Below are positions 10,161 through 21,132 of a stretch of 64,000 nucleotides of DNA, one piece after another. Position 1 is the first letter of the stretch. Every line of letters starts with the position of its first letter. Source of the DNA: Paenibacillus sp. RC334 (GTDB lineage Bacteria > Bacillota > Bacilli > Paenibacillales > Paenibacillaceae). The stretch covers positions 4,759,001 through 4,823,000 of the forward strand of contig NZ_CP125370.1 in assembly GCF_030034735.1 (NCBI RefSeq). The letters run 5' to 3'. The notes under the pieces are model-generated. The model worked only from the letters and a program-made list of their open reading frames with translations, was not told where the DNA came from and ran no database searches. The position numbers and the translations under genes are program-made.

Positions 10161-10249
10161 CTACTTAGTTATATTAAAAGCAATTTCTCACAAAAAATCA
10201 AACCAACTGATCACAGCCTAAGACTGTATTTTCACGAATATTTTTGTAA

Positions 10250-14468: not shown

Positions 14469-15992
14469 ATGGAACAAAAAATGTCCATCGGACGAATCCT
14501 GTCCGTACTGCTGCTGGGCGCCTTCATTTCTATTTTGAATCAAACCCTGCTGAATGTGGCGATTCCGCATTTGATGAACGACTTCAATGTATCCGCAACT
14601 ACCGTTCAATGGCTATCCACCGGATATATGCTGACCAACGGGATTTTGATTCCGATTACCGCCTTCATGATTGAGTCGTTCGGGACACGTGCGCTGTTTA
14701 TTTCAGCGATGGGGCTGTTTACTGCCGGTTCTGTCGTTTGCGCCGTCAGTACCGGCTTTGCGCCTATGCTGGTCGGACGCATCATTCAGGCCAGCGGAGC
14801 GGGTATTATCATGCCAGTGGTTATGAACGTGTTCCTGACCGTATTTCCCCCGGAAAAACGGGGGGCAGCCATGGGAACGATGGGCATCGCGATGATGTTT
14901 GCCCCAGCGATAGGACCCACTTTATCCGGCTGGATAGTGGAGCATTACAGCTGGCGGCTGCTATTTTTACTAGTCATTCCGCTGGCGATCATTGATATTC
15001 TGTTTGCTGTACGCTGGCTGAAAAATGTGTCCAAGCTGACGTATCCTCATTTTGACCTGCTCGGAACGATCTTTTCGACCCTTGGCTTTGGCTTCCTGCT
15101 GTATGGCTTCAGTTCCGCTGGAGACAAGGGCTGGAGCAGCGATACAGTAGTGCTCACGCTCGCTGCCGGGCTCGTGTTTATTGTAATGTTTGTCGTACGC
15201 GAGCTGAATATAAGACAGCCCATGCTGGAGTTCCGTGTGTTTAAGTATGATATTTTTACGGTATCCACGCTGGTCGGCGCTACCGTCAATATGACGATGT
15301 TCGGCGGAATGCTGCTGCTGCCGATTTATCTGCAAAATATACGCAGCTTTACACCGCTGCAATCCGGTTTGCTGTTATTGCCCGGCGCACTGCTGATGGG
15401 TGTCATGTCACCGATATCGGGAGCGATTTTCGACCGCATTGGTGCTAGGCCACTGGCAATTATCGGGTTGATCATTACGGCAGTCACGACATGGGAATTC
15501 AGTCTGCTGACGGATGCCACGACCTATGGACACATTATGATCATCTATACGATTCGCAGCTTCGGGATGTCATTGTTAATGATGTCCGTACAGACAGAAG
15601 GGCTGAATCAGCTTCCTCCCCATCTGGGCAGCCACGGTACAGCCATGTCCAATACAGTAAGGCAAATTGCCGGGTCCATCGGCACCGCATGGCTCATTAC
15701 GGTGATGAGCAGCCGGGCTACCATTCATTTGGCGGATTATGCGAATGTGGCTACCACCGCCAATGTTCCTTTAACCGAAGGCGTAGCTGAGCTGGGGCAG
15801 ACCCTCGCGCAAACGGCTGGAGTTTCGACGGAAACTGGCTCGGCGCTTGCGTTACAGCAGGTATATCGAAGTGCCGTCACAGAATCGACGATCCACGGCA
15901 TTAACGATGCATTTATCATTGCTACCGGAATCGCGCTGGCGGGACTGCTGTTCTCCCTGTTCTTGCGGCGGTCTATACCTCGACGGAGATAA
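14469..15992 (+). CDS. DHA2-family MFS multidrug exporter (EmrB type)
   Basis: A 507-residue drug:H+ antiporter with about 14 helices. It shows the DHA2 signatures LNVAIPHLMNDFNVSATTVQW and GAGIIMPVVMNVFLTVFPPE, and motif C-like GMAMMFAPAIGPTLSGWIVE. AGGAGG lies 6 bases before ATG 14469. With the adjacent HlyD-type protein it forms an EmrAB-like efflux pair in the plasma membrane. The terminator originally serving it may be the one at 19066-19110, now separated by an insertion. Confidence 0.92.
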   Translation: MEQKMSIGRILSVLLLGAFISILNQTLLNVAIPHLMNDFNVSATTVQWLSTGYMLTNGILIPITAFMIESFGTRALFISAMGLFTAGSVVCAVSTGFAPMLVGRIIQASGAGIIMPVVMNVFLTVFPPEKRGAAMGTMGIAMMFAPAIGPTLSGWIVEHYSWRLLFLLVIPLAIIDILFAVRWLKNVSKLTYPHFDLLGTIFSTLGFGFLLYGFSSAGDKGWSSDTVVLTLAAGLVFIVMFVVRELNIRQPMLEFRVFKYDIFTVSTLVGATVNMTMFGGMLLLPIYLQNIRSFTPLQSGLLLLPGALLMGVMSPISGAIFDRIGARPLAIIGLIITAVTTWEFSLLTDATTYGHIMIIYTIRSFGMSLLMMSVQTEGLNQLPPHLGSHGTAMSNTVRQIAGSIGTAWLITVMSSRATIHLADYANVATTANVPLTEGVAELGQTLAQTAGVSTETGSALALQQVYRSAVTESTIHGINDAFIIATGIALAGLLFSLFLRRSIPRRR

Positions 15993-16017
15993 ACCTGCAA
16001 CACGATAGGTGTTCGGT

Positions 16018-16037
16018 GAAAATAAAGTATTAGACTG
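16018..16037 (+). repeat. Left copy of the 20-bp terminal inverted repeat
   Basis: GAAAATAAAGTATTAGACTG, an exact reverse complement of 19020-19039. Two weaker relatives follow inside the left end, around 16089-16105 and 16144-16160 (AAATAAG/AAGT..TTAGACTG). Confidence 0.8.
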
Positions 16038-16116
16038 GAGTCGTTGATTTAACGCGATTTTAAAATTAAAAAATCGTCAGCTTTTGAAAAATAAGTTTTA
16101 GACTGATCCATTAAAC

Positions 16117-16205
16117 GAAGCAGCGGCGGACCAAGACTTGATAAATAAAGTCTTAGACTGCCGCTTTTATCATTCAACTAGCGTCTCCCGTTAGCTCAAG
16201 GGTCA
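16117..16205 (+). repeat. Dispersed repeat with hairpin, copy 1
   Basis: A palindromic core (AGCGGC...AAGACTT / AAGTCTT...GCCGCT) is followed by CAACTAGCGTCTCCCGTTAG. Most of it recurs at 16845-16920, so this is a repeat family within the insert. The hairpin with its T run could also end transcription. Confidence 0.6.
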
Positions 16206-16399
16206 ACCCATTTCAGTATATGATGTGCAAAGTATTGTCCAACCTTGGTAGTTCCAGTCTTATCCGTTACAGGGCTCACTAAGAATGTAATGTCTTTAAA
16301 GTCAATCTTATAATTCAGTAAGGCTTTTAGAAATGCAGATCCGTACTGTCGTAACCATCTCGATCTTCTTTCCCGATGTAGCCTTACGGTTATACGCAT
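16196..16399 (-). CDS. Hypothetical 67-codon ORF or gene remnant
   Basis: The ORF reads MRITVRLHRERRSRWLRQYG and ends VGQYFAHHILKWVDP, with its stop falling in the repeat at the left end of the insert. I see no good ribosome site and no family I recognise. Its composition is protein-like, so it may be the C-terminal remnant of a larger gene cut by the rearrangements here. Confidence 0.3.
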   Translation of the reverse strand: MRITVRLHRERRSRWLRQYGSAFLKALLNYKIDFKDITFLVSPVTDKTGTTKVGQYFAHHILKWVDP

Positions 16400-16453
16400 G
16401 CTACTCTATAATCACTCAACAGCTTAAACCATTTAACTAAAGGGAGGATGGTT

Positions 16454-16819
16454 ATGATTGATCTGAACAGCAGCGTTAATCTGTTACATGCGTTCAAAGA
16501 TAATCAGAAGATGCTAAACGCTATTGGTGACGAAACCAGGCAAGCGATTATTATAACTTTAATGCAGAGTGCGGGAACGCCCGGTATGAGGGTTGGGGAA
16601 ATTACAGAACGAACCAACTTATCCCGTCCAGCAGTTTTGCATCACCTGACTGAGAAATTTGTACCATCTAAAGAGTTACCAGCGAATATCGCATTATTGA
16701 GAATACAATTAGTAAAAATGCATGTCTTCAAATTCGAATTAATAAATCTCGTGGCTTCAAATTTAGAGCCTGAAAAGTCAATGGAGAATAGACACTCCTC
16801 AAAAGTAAGACCTGACTGA
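16454..16819 (+). pseudogene. Truncated ArsR-family regulator fused to unrelated sequence
   Basis: The first 66 or so residues are a normal ArsR-type winged helix (NQKMLNAIGDETRQAIIITL, then EITERTNLSRPAVLHHL). AGGGAGG stands 6 bases before ATG 16454. Just after HHL, where ILKDAG-like sequence and the wing should follow, similarity stops near 16650. The remaining 50 residues (EKFVPSKELPANIALL and on) are antisense to a pentapeptide-repeat reading frame. So the gene lost its wing and C terminus through a junction with foreign DNA, and the 121-residue product is unlikely to work as a repressor. Confidence 0.6.
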
Positions 16820-16851
16820 TTTTTGACGTGTTCACAGAGACGCAGCGGCAC
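16642..16851 (-). pseudogene. Fragment of a pentapeptide-repeat protein
   Basis: The minus strand encodes LTFEECLFSIDFSGSKF, then FINSNLKTCIFTNCILNNAIF and FAGNSLDGTNFS. This is a run of pentapeptide repeats with Leu/Phe at the central position, as in Qnr/MfpA-like right-handed beta helices. Such proteins have 180 or more residues; here only about 60 remain. The 3' end runs into ArsR sequence and stops in it (GTNFSVR then TGA), and the 5' end lies in the repeat element at 16845. It is a broken passenger gene of the insert. Confidence 0.55.
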
Positions 16852-16920
16852 ATTTAGACTAAAAAATATAGTCTTAAGTTGCCGCTGTAATATTTTAACT
16901 AACGTTCTCCGTTAGCGTAA
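16845..16920 (+). repeat. Dispersed repeat with hairpin, copy 2
   Basis: CAGCGGCA pairs with TGCCGCTG around TTTAGACTA / TAGTCTTAA. It is followed by TTAACTAACGTTCTCCGTTA, closely matching the repeat at 16117-16205. A core resembling GCTAACGGGCAGTT also appears on the minus strand near 18880-18895. Confidence 0.6.
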
Positions 16921-16930
16921 GTACATTACA

Positions 16931-17353
16931 TTAATTCACCGTCTTAATCTCCAGGCCGTGACATTTAAAGTTATAGTTGGGGTTTTTCATAACCTCTTCT
17001 TTCTGAAGTCCATACATGGCTATTTTATAGTTTATTTCTTCTAAGTGTTTAAAACTTTCGTCAATTTTCTTCTGCACTTCCAATTTATGCTGCATCAACA
17101 TTTCTTCTCTTTGTAAATAGGTAATATTTCCCAATTCATAAAGTTCCTTGTAATCCTTTATTTTTGAAAGAGGCATGCCTGTCTCTTTGAGGCAACGAAT
17201 AAAAGAAATCCAATCTATTTGTTGTTCGCTATAAACTCTACGGCCTTTTTCGTCACGAGATATATTTGGTAATATCCCTTGCTCTTCATAAAATCGAAGC
17301 GTCTTTGCAGATACATTTAAATTCTCCACTACATATGTCATTGAATACAACAT
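16931..17353 (-). CDS. MerR-family transcriptional regulator
   Basis: A 140-residue regulator: a MerR winged helix (TYVVENLNVSAKTLRFYEEQGI, then RRVYSEQQIDWISFIRCLKETGMPL) followed by a long dimerisation helix (about 75-120) and a short C-terminal tail NFKCHGLEIKTVN with one Cys. Its effector is unknown; the size fits the AdhR/YhdM-like branch that senses aldehydes or other electrophiles. GGAGG lies 10 bases before ATG 17353. It is divergent from the OYE gene, whose promoter has the 19-base MerR-type spacer, so OYE is the likely target. Confidence 0.85.
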   Translation of the reverse strand: MLYSMTYVVENLNVSAKTLRFYEEQGILPNISRDEKGRRVYSEQQIDWISFIRCLKETGMPLSKIKDYKELYELGNITYLQREEMLMQHKLEVQKKIDESFKHLEEINYKIAMYGLQKEEVMKNPNYNFKCHGLEIKTVN

Positions 17354-17370
17354 CTACTTGTCCCCCTCCT

Positions 17371-17393
17371 TTAGTTACAGTTACTGTAACTAA
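17371..17393. promoter_or_regulatory. Perfect palindrome upstream of merR
   Basis: TTAGTTACAG, TTA, CTGTAACTAA: a 10-3-10 perfect inverted repeat, 17 bases before the MerR start codon. Its position suggests an autoregulatory operator. It differs in sequence from the dyad in the OYE promoter. Confidence 0.6.
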
Positions 17394-17456
17394 ATATATA
17401 TCATAAAGAGAATGACAACGCAAAAAATCTATATTTAACCATATAAAAATAAATAC

Positions 17457-17487
17457 TTGACTTGCCGTAACGGAAACCAATTAAACT
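17457..17487 (+). promoter_or_regulatory. MerR-type promoter of the OYE gene (19-base spacer)
   Basis: TTGACT (-35, 17457-17462) and TAAACT (-10, 17482-17487) are separated by 19 bases, longer than the usual 17 and characteristic of MerR-activated promoters. The spacer contains the dyad CCGTAACGG. The site lies 38 bases before the OYE start and faces away from the merR gene. Confidence 0.65.
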
Positions 17488-17524
17488 GAAATAGAAAAGA
17501 AAATATGAGAGCGAGGTTAATGAA

Positions 17525-18646
17525 ATGAATCAGAAATACAGTAGGTTATTTGAATCCTTCACATTCAGAAATGGAATAACAATTAAGAATAGTATCGTTA
17601 TGGCACCTATGACAACCTGGTCAAGTAACGACGATCTTACCATTTCGGATGACGAAGTAAAGTATTACAAACAAAGAGTGAATGGAGTAGGACTCGTCAT
17701 TACAGGGTGTACTCATGTTACACCTAATGGGCAGGGTTTTACGAATGAATTCGCTGGGTACAATGATGAATTTACTCCAAGTCTACGAAAATTAGCTGAG
17801 GCAGCGAAAAGTGGAGGCGCCCCTGCGATCCTACAGATTTTCCATGCTGGCAATAAAGCCGTGCCTGGATTGGATGCAGTTAGTGCGAGTGCATTGCAAC
17901 CCGAAGTTACTAATTTAGGTTCAACTTCAGAAACAAGAGAACTATCACATGAGGAGATCTTGTCGATTATACGTGCTTTTGGAGACACAACGAGAAGAGC
18001 GATTGAAGCCGGATTTGATGGCGTCGAAATTCATGGGGCTCATGGATTTTTAATTCAGAATTTCTGGTCGCCAGCGACAAATCAACGGACGGACCAATGG
18101 GGAGGATCACTTGAAAATCGCTTGCGTTTTCCATTGGCAATTATTGAAGAAATCAAAATTGTCATTGAAAAACATGCTACAAAACCATTCATTTTAGGAT
18201 TCCGATTTTCCCCTGAAGAATCCTCCAAAGTGGACGGATTACGTATGAAAGACACGTATGAATTAATTGATATCCTTGTTGAACAGGATTTAGATTATAT
18301 ACATGCTTCATTAGACAATGTGTCTTCAAAGCCAGTAGATAGTCAAGATGAAAAAACACGGCTTGAATTAATTCTTGAAAGAGCAAACGGTAAGGTACCT
18401 GTGATGGCTGCTGGTTCCATAATAACACCGGATGATGCTCTTAAAGCTATGGAATTAGGTTTGCCGCTAGTCGCCATTGGGCATGCGTTAATTATGGATC
18501 CTAATTGGGTTGAAAAGGTCGCAAATGGACGTGAAGCCGAGGTAGATTCTGAATTGAACGTTTCGAAACTCAACCAGCTTAATATTCCAGAGAAACTTTG
18601 GAATGTATTTCAAGAAATGCCAGGTTGGTTTAATATTAGTAAATAA
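17525..18646 (+). CDS. Old Yellow Enzyme-family NADH:flavin oxidoreductase (YqiG-like)
   Basis: A 373-residue FMN enzyme with a TIM-barrel fold. Seen: IVMAPMTTWSS at strand 1, the substrate/FMN His pair region GVEIHGAHGFLIQNFWSPATN, and the phosphate-binding VMAAGSIITPDDALKAME and PLVAIGHALIMDP. Such enzymes reduce activated C=C bonds of electrophiles with NAD(P)H. GAGG lies 9 bases before ATG 17525. It belongs with the divergent MerR gene, a pairing often seen for electrophile-stress responses, and lies in an AT-rich insert, so it was probably acquired. Confidence 0.88.
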   Translation: MNQKYSRLFESFTFRNGITIKNSIVMAPMTTWSSNDDLTISDDEVKYYKQRVNGVGLVITGCTHVTPNGQGFTNEFAGYNDEFTPSLRKLAEAAKSGGAPAILQIFHAGNKAVPGLDAVSASALQPEVTNLGSTSETRELSHEEILSIIRAFGDTTRRAIEAGFDGVEIHGAHGFLIQNFWSPATNQRTDQWGGSLENRLRFPLAIIEEIKIVIEKHATKPFILGFRFSPEESSKVDGLRMKDTYELIDILVEQDLDYIHASLDNVSSKPVDSQDEKTRLELILERANGKVPVMAAGSIITPDDALKAMELGLPLVAIGHALIMDPNWVEKVANGREAEVDSELNVSKLNQLNIPEKLWNVFQEMPGWFNISK

Positions 18647-18677
18647 AGAGTAGTCCTAAAGGCTACTCAGATTGACG

Positions 18678-18715
18678 AGAAACCCAAGTCTTTTATGAGA
18701 CTTCGGGTTTCTTTT
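18678..18715 (+). terminator. Terminator after the OYE gene
   Basis: GAAACCCAAGTC pairs with GACTTCGGGTTTC (one mismatch), then TTTT. A smaller hairpin, GAGTAG/CTACTC, precedes it at 18648-18668. Confidence 0.8.
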
Positions 18716-18722
18716 GCTGATT

Positions 18723-18920
18723 CTAAGGTGCTCCGTCCATCCGTAGTTCGATAGGGCAATTCTTGCTGTTGCGGACACACATACCGCGTATGTTTCGATC
18801 TTGAAGGCCTTTGCAAATAGAGGGCGTTAAATAACCTGAATCTAAGGCTACCGCTCCAGAATATTGTTGCGTTAAACTGCCCGTTAGCGTAACGATCGAT
18901 CCTCGATTAATGCTTTTTTT
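18723..18920 (-). pseudogene. Transposase-like remnant (IS1182-like, tentative)
   Basis: The minus-strand frame ending at 18723 reads GAVALDSGYLTPSICKGLQD and then RNIRGM. This resembles the second catalytic-Asp region of IS1182-type DDE transposases, which reads about AVDAGYLNPYIARELFDRGI. Only some 60 codons are open and there is no start or ribosome site. It may be the last trace of the element that brought the insert. The match is from memory and short. Confidence 0.35.
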
Positions 18921-18930
18921 CTCAGTTTGG

Positions 18931-18984
18931 AAAATAAAAGGATCTACATATTAGTTATGCATAATATGTAGATCCTTTTATTTT
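18931..18984. repeat. Long perfect hairpin (23-bp arms, 8-base loop)
   Basis: The arms 18931-18953 and 18962-18984 are exact reverse complements. They are AT-rich, with GGATCTAC near the middle of the left arm. It is not next to a gene end, so a transcription terminator is not the obvious reading. It may be an end structure of a mobile element. Confidence 0.75.
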
Positions 18985-19019
18985 AATAAGTTTTTTTCAA
19001 CCAAGGTCTTGATAATTTT

Positions 19020-19039
19020 CAGTCTAATACTTTATTTTC
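19020..19039 (-). repeat. Right copy of the 20-bp terminal inverted repeat
   Basis: Exact reverse complement of 16018-16037. It is followed 4 bases later by the direct repeat CACGATAGG. Confidence 0.8.
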
Positions 19040-19065
19040 CTTTCACGATAGGCTGGCACGCAAAA

Positions 19066-19110
19066 AAGGAGCATTCATCCCCTGTCCTTTAAGGGATGTG
19101 AATGCTCCTT
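19066..19110. terminator. Bidirectional terminator of the P1B4 ATPase gene
   Basis: AAGGAGCATTCA pairs with TGAATGCTCCTT, with TCCC/GGGA inside. It lies 37 bases after the ATPase stop. Before the 16-19 kb insertion it would also have stood 60-odd bases after the EmrB-type gene. Confidence 0.8.
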
Positions 19111-19146: not shown

Positions 19147-21132
19147 TTATGACCGCAGCAAGCGCAAGCCGTTCAAAATGACAAGCAACGTGCTGCCCTC
19201 ATGCCCGATAACGCCAAATGGCAAAGCTATATCTTGCACAAAGTTGCTAATGATGAGCAGTAAAATGACACTTACGGCGAAGATCATATTCTGCTTGACC
19301 ACCCGTTGTGCCTTGCGTGCCAGTGCTACCGTCGGGGCAATCTCTTCGATGCCATCGTTCATCAGCACCACATCCGCGACCTCCAGTGCGGCTCCACTAC
19401 CATGCATACCCATGCCCAGTCCGACCGTTGCGGCAGCCAGTGCCGGAGCATCGTTCACACCGTCGCCGACCATGACGACATGCCCGTACTGCTCCCGAAG
19501 CATGCGAATATGATTGACTTTGTCCTCCGGCATCAGACCAGCGTATACCGCATCGACTCCGGCCTGCGCCGCGATCACGGCGGCGGTTTCCGGGCGATCT
19601 CCGGTCAGCATAACGACCTGAATTCCCTGCGCTTGCAGGCGTCTCACCGCCTCCTGCGCCTGTGGCCGCAGCTCGTCGCGCAGTGCCAGCATCCCAACTA
19701 TCCTGTCATCCGCGAGGATAATGGATACGGTTTTACCCTCGGCTTCCAGCCGGGCACGTGTTTCTACCCATTCCGGCTCTGCCAGCGGGCCAGCGTCATC
19801 CAGCGCATCCGTGCGCCCGATTTTCCACCTCACCCCGTCTACCATGCCTTCCATTCCCCATCCGGTTAGAGAATGTACTTGCTCCACTGCGGGAAGCTCT
19901 CGCTGCCCCAATTCAGCTTCGGCTTTGGCTACAATCGCTCGTGCCAACGGATGCATGGAGTAGCTTTCTATTGCCGCGACAATGCGTAACAGTTCATTAA
20001 CATCGTAGCCTGTGGCGGTAATCCAGTCGGTTACAACAGGCGAACCGATGGTCAGCGTACCTGTTTTGTCAAAGGCGACGACAGATGTCAGCGCCATATT
20101 TTCCACATGCGCACCACCTTTGAACAGGATGCCCCGACGGGCACGGTTGGAAATAGCCGACAGCATGACTGGCATAATGGACGACACGAGTGCGCATGGT
20201 GAGGCCACAACGAGAAATACCATTGCCTTGTAAAATGCCGCTGCCCACGTCCATCCCAATACCATTGGCGCACCTGCAATAACAATCAGCGTAACCGCAA
20301 CAACAATTCGGGCGTAAATCGACTCGAACCTTTTGATAAACCGTTGGGAATCGGGGACCTCTGTCTGCGCTTCCTCCACCATACGGATGATTTTTGAAAA
20401 TAGAGTGCCTTCGGAGGATTGACTAACCTCCACGTACAGCACGCCTTCCCCGTTAATGGTGCCCGCATATACCTCATCACCCGCCGCTTTGTTCACCGGA
20501 ATGGATTCCCCGGTAATAGATGCCTGATTCACCGCCGAAACCCCCTTGGAAATCCGGCCATCCGCCGGAATCAGCTCGCCCGGCTTCACCAGCAGCAGAT
20601 CACCCGGCAGCAGTTGCTCAATACCGACCGTTTCTGTCCCCTCGCGGGACAGACGCAAAGCCGTTTCCGGCTTCAACGCCATCAGCTCGGAAATATCCTT
20701 GCTGCTGCGCTCGGTGGTATAGCTCTCCAGTGCACCGCTGAGTGCAAAAATGAAGATCAGCATTGCTCCTTCATTCCAATAGCCAATAGCCGCAGCCCCC
20801 AATGACGCTGCGATCATGAGCAGGTTGACATCCAGTTCACGTTCACGGACCAGCGTCTCAATGCCTTCTCTAGCTTTAGACCAGCCACCTAGGGCGTAGG
20901 AAACCACATACAGGATGACCGCCAGCCATTGCGACCAATGCGAGACGCCCCATGCCATCAGCATAAGTGTTCCACTGCCCAGAGCAGCCTGCATCTCCTT
21001 GTTTTTCAGCATGCTTTTGAGCTGGAATTGTGGTTTGCGATTCGGGCCTGGCCGTCCGCTGCCGCTGTTTTTTGAAAGTATCCGATCAGAGGGAGACAAT
21101 GTCTTTTGAAGTTGTTGAACTGCTTGCATCAT
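19147..21132 (-). CDS. pfeT: P1B4-type metal efflux ATPase (PfeT/ZosA-like)
   Basis: A 661-residue heavy-metal P-type ATPase. Seen: TGES in the actuator domain (ASITGESIPVNK), the membrane SPC motif (VVASPCALVSS), the phosphorylated DKTGTLT, and VVMVGDGVNDAPALAAATVG. It has no N-terminal HMA domain. SPC rather than CPC, together with the C-terminal GHEGSTLLVILNGLRLL, marks subclass P1B4. The Bacillus member PfeT (formerly ZosA) exports Fe(II) and is controlled by PerR and Fur. A Fur-like box lies 120 bases upstream here, supporting iron export, though Co(II) or Zn(II) remain possible. AAGGAA precedes ATG 21132. Confidence 0.85.
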   Translation of the reverse strand: MMQAVQQLQKTLSPSDRILSKNSGSGRPGPNRKPQFQLKSMLKNKEMQAALGSGTLMLMAWGVSHWSQWLAVILYVVSYALGGWSKAREGIETLVRERELDVNLLMIAASLGAAAIGYWNEGAMLIFIFALSGALESYTTERSSKDISELMALKPETALRLSREGTETVGIEQLLPGDLLLVKPGELIPADGRISKGVSAVNQASITGESIPVNKAAGDEVYAGTINGEGVLYVEVSQSSEGTLFSKIIRMVEEAQTEVPDSQRFIKRFESIYARIVVAVTLIVIAGAPMVLGWTWAAAFYKAMVFLVVASPCALVSSIMPVMLSAISNRARRGILFKGGAHVENMALTSVVAFDKTGTLTIGSPVVTDWITATGYDVNELLRIVAAIESYSMHPLARAIVAKAEAELGQRELPAVEQVHSLTGWGMEGMVDGVRWKIGRTDALDDAGPLAEPEWVETRARLEAEGKTVSIILADDRIVGMLALRDELRPQAQEAVRRLQAQGIQVVMLTGDRPETAAVIAAQAGVDAVYAGLMPEDKVNHIRMLREQYGHVVMVGDGVNDAPALAAATVGLGMGMHGSGAALEVADVVLMNDGIEEIAPTVALARKAQRVVKQNMIFAVSVILLLIISNFVQDIALPFGVIGHEGSTLLVILNGLRLLRS

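Follow-up and report, generated by a model that had tools for sequence, protein, structure and literature searches.

Transposons of the Tn7 type have termini reading 5′-TGT...ACA-3′. Miniature inverted-repeat transposable elements (MITEs), which are non-autonomous derivatives of insertion sequences (ISs), contain no transposase and are moved in trans by relatives that possess the same ends; elements of the IS4 family duplicate 9-12 bp of their target, and the attC sites of integrons carry an R′ box with the consensus GTTRRRY. The present analysis concerns an insert of Paenibacillus sp. RC334, located at 16010-19047 of a 64,000-nucleotide stretch of contig NZ_CP125370.1 (positions 4,759,001 to 4,823,000); this whole stretch is called the window, and its numbering is used throughout. 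According to a published review (PMC11406308), Tn7 relatives are characterised by a 5-bp duplication, a spaced and a tandem end, glmS and TnsE. The insert is flanked by a 5-bp target duplication, ATAGG, and, since the same ends bound elements that encode TnsABCDE and have 5-bp duplications, it is very probably a transposase-less, that is non-autonomous, Tn7-type transposon, which was inserted between an emrB gene and its terminator hairpin with duplication of ATAGG.

The insertion between emrB and the hairpin, located at 19066-19110 to the right of the insert, is genuine. The locus was searched in 60 Paenibacillus genomes, and all 11 relatives in which the two flanks adjoin were examined (L077-L087): the insert is absent from each of them, including one that is labelled as the same species. 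Two of these empty sites (L083 and L086) have the junction ACAAGATAGGCTGGCAC, in which ATAGG is single, whereas it is double in the window; the spacer between the flanks differs in the remaining nine. The original prediction, made from the letters of the window alone, had described a mobile insertion without a recombinase of its own, as well as a clean ancestral join between emrB and its terminator, and had proposed a search for the empty site in relatives; this search was run, and the 11 insert-free relatives, two of them with a single target ATAGG, bear out both descriptions.

The same prediction had taken a 9-bp direct repeat, CACGATAGG, to be the likely target duplication. The repeat is indeed present, at 16001-16009 and 19044-19052, but it consists of ATAGG (16005-16009 and 19048-19052) plus four matching bases (CACG before ATAGG, in the left copy), and the repeat tests at the predicted terminus, reported below, give a duplication of 5 bp. 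Perfect 20-bp inverted repeats are seen just inside the ends, as predicted, at 16018-16037 and 19020-19039, and the DNA of the insert is AT-richer than its surroundings (32-43% GC per 500 bp, compared with mostly 48-60% outside, one outside value being 42%). These inverted repeats are read as TnsB-type sites, to which TnsB would be expected to bind.

The genome-wide search of the repeat that had been suggested was run with its 17-mer core, AATAAAGTMTTAGACTG, and gave 23 occurrences in this genome (up to 2 mismatches), compared with 2 for a reversed control pattern. The sites form two kinds of ends: end A has spaced sites (at 0, +68 and +123 in the full form), and end B has tandem sites that recur every 20-21 bp; the terminus, usually TGT, is 11 bases further out than the outermost site. 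From 110 loci, 50 pairs of outer sites with a separation of 0.3-9 kb were obtained, pairs outside this range being dropped; 80 of at least 120 stretches from the exact site scan entered this duplication test and the family scan. An exact 5-bp repeat was present at the predicted terminus in 19 of the 50 pairs, with the window insert among them, as against a mean of 0.083 and a maximum of 6 at the other 624 offsets; the 19 include orthologous copies (L034/L098, L099/L100/L106 and possibly L032/L245), which brings them to about 15 events. End A of the window (16010-16199, plus strand; terminus TGTTCGGTG) has three spaced sites, at 16021-16037, 16089-16105 and 16144-16160, with a hairpin around the third, and can be aligned with the A ends of autonomous elements across all three; end B (19020-19047, minus strand; terminus CGTGAAAGG in place of TGT) is down to one site, at 19020-19036, compared with the 3-5 tandem sites usual in relatives, and a perfect hairpin with 23-bp arms (18931-18984) is counted within it.

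A search for the TnsA family was positive in 26 of 75 Paenibacillus genomes; among 20 stretches around these matches, the sites were found only in that of one genome (G072), where the tandem end lies between glmS and TnsABCDE. The TnsB of G072 was compared with 295 genomes of the family, a draw that does not include G072 itself: 45 genomes matched at E 1e-100 or better, and full-length relatives with 57-87% identity, referred to here as close, occur in 15 of them, with G189 (an 89% TnsB fragment with a stop) dropped from this group. Sites with up to 2 mismatches lie within about 1.5 kb of TnsB at 7 of the 15 close loci, compared with 0 of 22 loci in which TnsB has 50% identity or less; in longer stretches the tandem end precedes tnsA in all 15 close clusters and in G072 (16/16), and glmS is seen in 14 of the 15 and in G072 (15/16). 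Both ends are contained in the examined DNA for five of the 16 clusters, and all five have matching 5-bp repeats, namely CTTTG (G072), ATAAC, CAAAC, GATGT and AAGGT. Among the named records, covering 80 of at least 120 site-bearing stretches, three have TnsABC and a fourth has TnsE alone. In P. oenotherae (L215, 3672-5046) a TnsE-like gene in two pieces adjoins an end, with no TnsABCD matches in the 8-kb stretch examined.

As in Tn7 and the Tn7-like elements that encode TnsABCDE and target glmS, the duplication here is of 5 bp; elements of this kind have one end with spaced and one with tandem TnsB-type sites, of which the window keeps three at end A and a single one at end B. In the autonomous relatives glmS and tnsA adjoin the tandem end, and the window ends are common to TnsABCDE elements. 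Unlike Tn7, the window element and 15 others, the 16 distinct elements surveyed, are devoid of tns genes, lie away from glmS, measure 0.8-4.9 kb, contain different whole genes and have boundary motifs of their own, termed mA and mB and described below; the duplication is exact in 15 of the 16 and comprises four of five bases in L033. Sites with up to 1 mismatch are present in 41 of the 75 genomes (246 in total, several per element, compared with 10 reversed-control matches), and because close TnsB is found in only one of these same 75 genomes, G072, most such elements seem to be orphans without machinery of their own. Protein searches gave no TnsB match in RC334, nor in G035; the frame list and the family scan revealed no tns genes among the frames inside the insert, and the TnsA profile gave one weak 26-bit frame in the RC334 genome, at about 601 kb. 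The window element is like a MITE in that it has no transposase and probably owes its movement to a relative that has the same ends and acted in trans, and unlike one in its presumed dependence on a heteromeric transposase of the Tn7 type, in its multi-site ends and in the whole functional genes that it contains.

The ends of the insert bear the TnsB-type sites of a TnsABCDE lineage of Paenibacillaceae that is usually located behind glmS. TnsA and TnsB, together with TnsC, of such an element most likely moved the insert in trans by cut and paste, at a time when that element was in the cell, from which it has since been lost; the target was other than glmS, the TnsD site. Movement in trans, as originally proposed, is the likely route, but the transposase traced near 18723 had been suggested as the possible mover, and the machinery with matching ends is instead TnsABCDE. 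The layout may be read from left to right as ATAGG, end A, mA (16178-16194), debris of a first cargo, a second and decayed end A, mA, MerR, the old yellow enzyme (OYE), mB, hairpin, the one-site end B and ATAGG. The debris (16200-16834) includes an ArsR-type helix-turn-helix fragment (16448-16819, plus strand) and a pentapeptide-repeat fragment (16642-16851, minus strand); the second end A (16835-16920, plus strand), a hairpin with a remnant site followed by its own mA (16899-16915), is the left limit of the MerR-OYE cassette. Given this earlier cargo and the second left end, the simplest reading is that two cassettes were fused in one element. Because one B site is left and the terminus is CGT, the window copy is probably no longer mobile and fixed in place.

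Another origin would be a non-autonomous element of the IS type that duplicates 9 bp and is moved by a transposase of the IS4 or the IS1182 family. Such an origin could appeal to the 9-bp direct repeat, to an IS1182-like trace at 18720-18839 (minus strand), whose similarity to IS1182 transposases is weak and partial (for example 70% across 20 of 38 residues, E 0.3), and to one intact IS4-family transposase beside two tandem sites in the RC334 genome; however, the repeat that recurs at a constant distance from the site is 5 bp long, unlike that of IS4 derivatives, the same sites flank TnsABCDE clusters, and the IS4 neighbour is found at one locus only. A 9-bp duplication with an IS4 or IS1182 origin was rejected on the 5-bp repeats and on the sites of the TnsABCDE clusters, and this origin is hardly credible. 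The DNA around the trace had no match in plasmids. It is also quite unlikely that the insert is a decayed autonomous Tn7-type element, which lost its tns genes by internal deletion and is not part of the transposase-less population: the window copy is a mosaic with a reduced B end, and tns-bearing elements with the same ends do exist, but no tns remnant was recognised inside the insert, the surveyed elements are small and carry different whole genes in place of tns genes, and they have mA and mB near their ends, where neither was seen in the autonomous ones.

The origin as a transposase-less Tn7-type element has itself to face findings that weigh against it. An exact 5-bp repeat is missing from 31 of the 50 end pairs, a number in which mispairings and decay are mixed; the right terminus of the window is CGT and not TGT, at variance with 5′-TGT...ACA-3′, while the left one is TGT and TGT is common in relatives. 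The orientation of end-A matches relative to the replication fork, in which a strong bias would speak for targeting of the TnsE type, was 32 versus 16 (p=0.029) among 48 matches with orthologues still included, plasmid-like contigs and short outer-site matches left out, and two genome lengths rounded. Finally, the Mu-transpos_C profile is silent in the RC334 genome, but it is equally silent in 14 of 14 control genomes, so that the absence of TnsB from RC334 rests on the protein searches. Beside the two tandem TnsB-type sites mentioned above (L037, 1032-2348, about 511.5-512.8 kb of the RC334 genome), the IS4-family gene is the sole full-length copy of the genome, and is probably an IS next to an old end.

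The cargo of the window element is one complete pair, as predicted: a MerR-family regulator of 140 residues (16931-17353, minus strand) and an OYE-type NADH:flavin oxidoreductase of 373 residues (17525-18646, plus strand), both frames being complete. Between these divergent genes lies a perfect palindrome with 12-bp arms (17370-17394), a candidate MerR operator, and mB (18872-18892, plus strand) is the right limit of the cassette. The gene fragments, the repeat family and the perfect hairpin reported earlier were likewise all found within the insert. The proposed name of electrophile-stress cassette is plausible from the presence of MerR and OYE, but it rests on family names, and neither protein reaches the curated NCBIfam cut-off of the equivalog that it matches best. 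The cassette is present, with 93-97% identity, at other places in G035, G006, G041 and G007, and the pentapeptide fragment of the first cargo is weakly like a cassette protein of the L240 array (26% over 58 residues).

A DNA-binding regulator is combined with an enzyme in eight of the 16 elements: besides MerR and OYE in the window, these are TetR with FAA hydrolase and others in L032, which also has a Mutator-type transposase fragment, a weakly matched MmyB-like regulator with a zinc dehydrogenase in L099, HxlR with a zinc dehydrogenase in L104, AraC with a hydrolase in L110, MerR with SDR in L224, TetR with ApbA in L244, and HxlR with a PRISE-type reductase in L245. The other eight have different genes, three of them without a Pfam match among the frames scanned, which exclude the third frame of L104 and the 95-residue frame of L263. 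Joining the flanks of the elements yields a frame of 60 codons or more across the junction in 7 of 17 cases; the other 10, the window among them, have no such frame.

The earlier account of the insert was incomplete as to the limits of its cargo, as mA and mB were absent from it. The motif mA, TTGAACTAACG-TTCCC-CGTTAGCTTAA, is palindromic and lies near end A in many cassettes, mB, ACTAACCTGCCCGTTAGCTTAATG, lies near end B, and the two are in direct orientation; neither was seen in the autonomous Tns ends that were compared. The mA core has 45 matches in five genomes, compared with 1 for the control, and several of these stand behind plain hairpins without TnsB sites. Units of mB, hairpin and mA occur in the arrays L427, L432 and L240, with repeated motifs in L419, and parts of L427 and L419 have no nearby Tn7 sites. 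The full mB-hairpin-mA sites are 19 when distinct ones are counted (21 in redundant loci, versus 0 in reversed loci), and neighbouring motifs have the same orientation in 106 cases and the opposite one in 3.

Pairwise comparison of 122 mA places, in which the pairs are mutually non-independent, gave 391 pairs with homology restricted to the left side, 8 with homology restricted to the right and 8 with homology on both sides; one-sided pairs are thus 399 at mA, against 0 and 0 at points shifted by 400 bases either way. The 391 left-only pairs reflect common ends with different cargo. The 8 right-only pairs derive from two cargoes, one of which is MerR-OYE; it begins at mA behind left contexts barely alignable with each other. 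In the window, G035 and G006 the left context is a hairpin that resembles end A and has decayed sites; in G041 it is a plain array hairpin. At mB, 5 pairs have homology on the cargo side only, and an array of Bacillus sp. FJAT-28004 has two different hairpins behind near-identical copies of one cargo end. The L240 array of this strain comprises four mA-gene-mB units, with the gene on the strand opposite to the motif and the stop codon beside mA.

The same layout as in the Paenibacillaceae cassettes frames the trimethoprim resistance gene dfrD of Listeria monocytogenes plasmid pIP823 (L423, 1018-1615), with mA at 1018, the gene at 1039-1524 on the minus strand and mB (2 mismatches) at 1593; this describes the layout and not its history. 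Matches to mA were also seen at dfrD in L. innocua and in Enterococcus faecalis plasmids. The phage collection had no match to mA, and five stretches with mA were found in viral contigs.

The arrays recall integron cassettes and the attC arrays without integrase known as CALIN, as they consist of small units in one orientation. The attC sites measure 57-141 bp in one study (PMC4909258), and the sites described here, of about 77-130 nucleotides, likewise have two parts of inverted homology around a variable hairpin. This attC-like layout of R″-L″, variable hairpin and L′-R′ is present in 19 sites, but cross-pairing is unsupported (p 0.92 and 0.61), and single-strand folds do not favour pairing; moreover, the commonest form here is GTTAGCT or GTTAGTT, which does not fit GTTRRRY, and, unlike integron cassettes, many units bring their own regulator. 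No integron integrase was identified in the examined loci, whole genomes not having been searched for IntI. Because covariation of the arms was seen neither across nor within motifs, GTTRRRY is not matched and no integrase was identified, mA is proposed to be an exchange boundary and not an integron site.

How cargo came to change at mA admits two explanations. We tentatively propose, with somewhat less than even confidence, that Paenibacillaceae and other Bacillales possess their own gene-cassette exchange system, made of small units, often a regulator and an enzyme, which are bounded by mA and mB, form arrays of one orientation and would be recombined at the motif by a putative recombinase; the Tn7 lineage would have put TnsB sites around such cassettes, which then spread as transposase-less Tn7 elements, and dfrD of pIP823, a resistance gene known from other genera, stands in the same frame. 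Alternatively, and with a probability just short of even, mA and mB are conserved subterminal parts or terminator-like hairpins, and cargo was changed by ordinary homologous recombination and deletion, with no dedicated recombinase. Hairpins do adjoin the motifs, their arms do not covary, and no dedicated recombinase was identified in the examined loci, where a motif scan gave one XerS-like frame; differing cargo between common transposon ends is also expected anyway, and accounts in part for the left-only pairs. This alternative does not readily explain why homology ends at mA in so many one-sided pairs and at neither control point, why the motifs agree in orientation, why arrays with motif pairs between genes exist, in part without nearby Tn7 sites (L427, L419), and why the same cargo end precedes two different hairpins in FJAT-28004.

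If the exchange system were real, it would give Gram-positive soil bacteria a means, similar to integrons, of sharing regulated genes for detoxification, and it would predict mobilisation in trans, cassette circles and a recombinase yet to be named. For Firmicutes, one survey reports one complete integron, together with a few CALIN (PMC9024848). The window element is a relative of Tn7 and in that sense of a known kind; what is unusual is that transposase-less cassettes, a population with a boundary motif of its own, make up the mobile part. A large survey of Tn7-like elements began from profiles of core Tn7 proteins (PMC8649781), an approach that elements with Tn7 ends and no tns genes would escape. 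No description of transposase-less Tn7-type elements in Paenibacillus, or of the mA and mB motifs, was recognised in the open-licence PMC literature, with preprints outside this scope.

Further observations concern the motifs and the surroundings of the insert. Three places that have no TnsB sites (L089, L090 and L427 at 3446) share almost identical sequence after mB (GGCGTATCGCCTGTCTAACAGCG...), which is perhaps another kind of element end. On a P. urinalis plasmid (L442, 20008-25423), about 1.5 kb separate an mA/mB group from a XerC/D-like tyrosine recombinase, which scores 132 bits versus an integron integrase cut-off of 265. The insert is flanked on the left by an EmrB-type MFS efflux gene (14469-15992, plus strand, with its stop at 15992), and on the right by a heavy-metal P-type ATPase gene (19147-21132, minus strand); Rfam gave no match in the window at gathering scores. 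A lone TnsB-type site with 2 mismatches lies on the minus strand at 10214-10230; no partner end was seen, and the site is perhaps a decayed end. At four places in G046, in A and B ends alike, an IS110-family element (PF01548, PF02371) interrupts a TnsB-type site at one and the same base (L106, 5557-7130 and 9551-11124; L107, 7405-8979; L112, 8014-9587); L108 has a further, partial copy and P. allorhizosphaerae a 91% relative, and this element appears to target Tn7-type ends.

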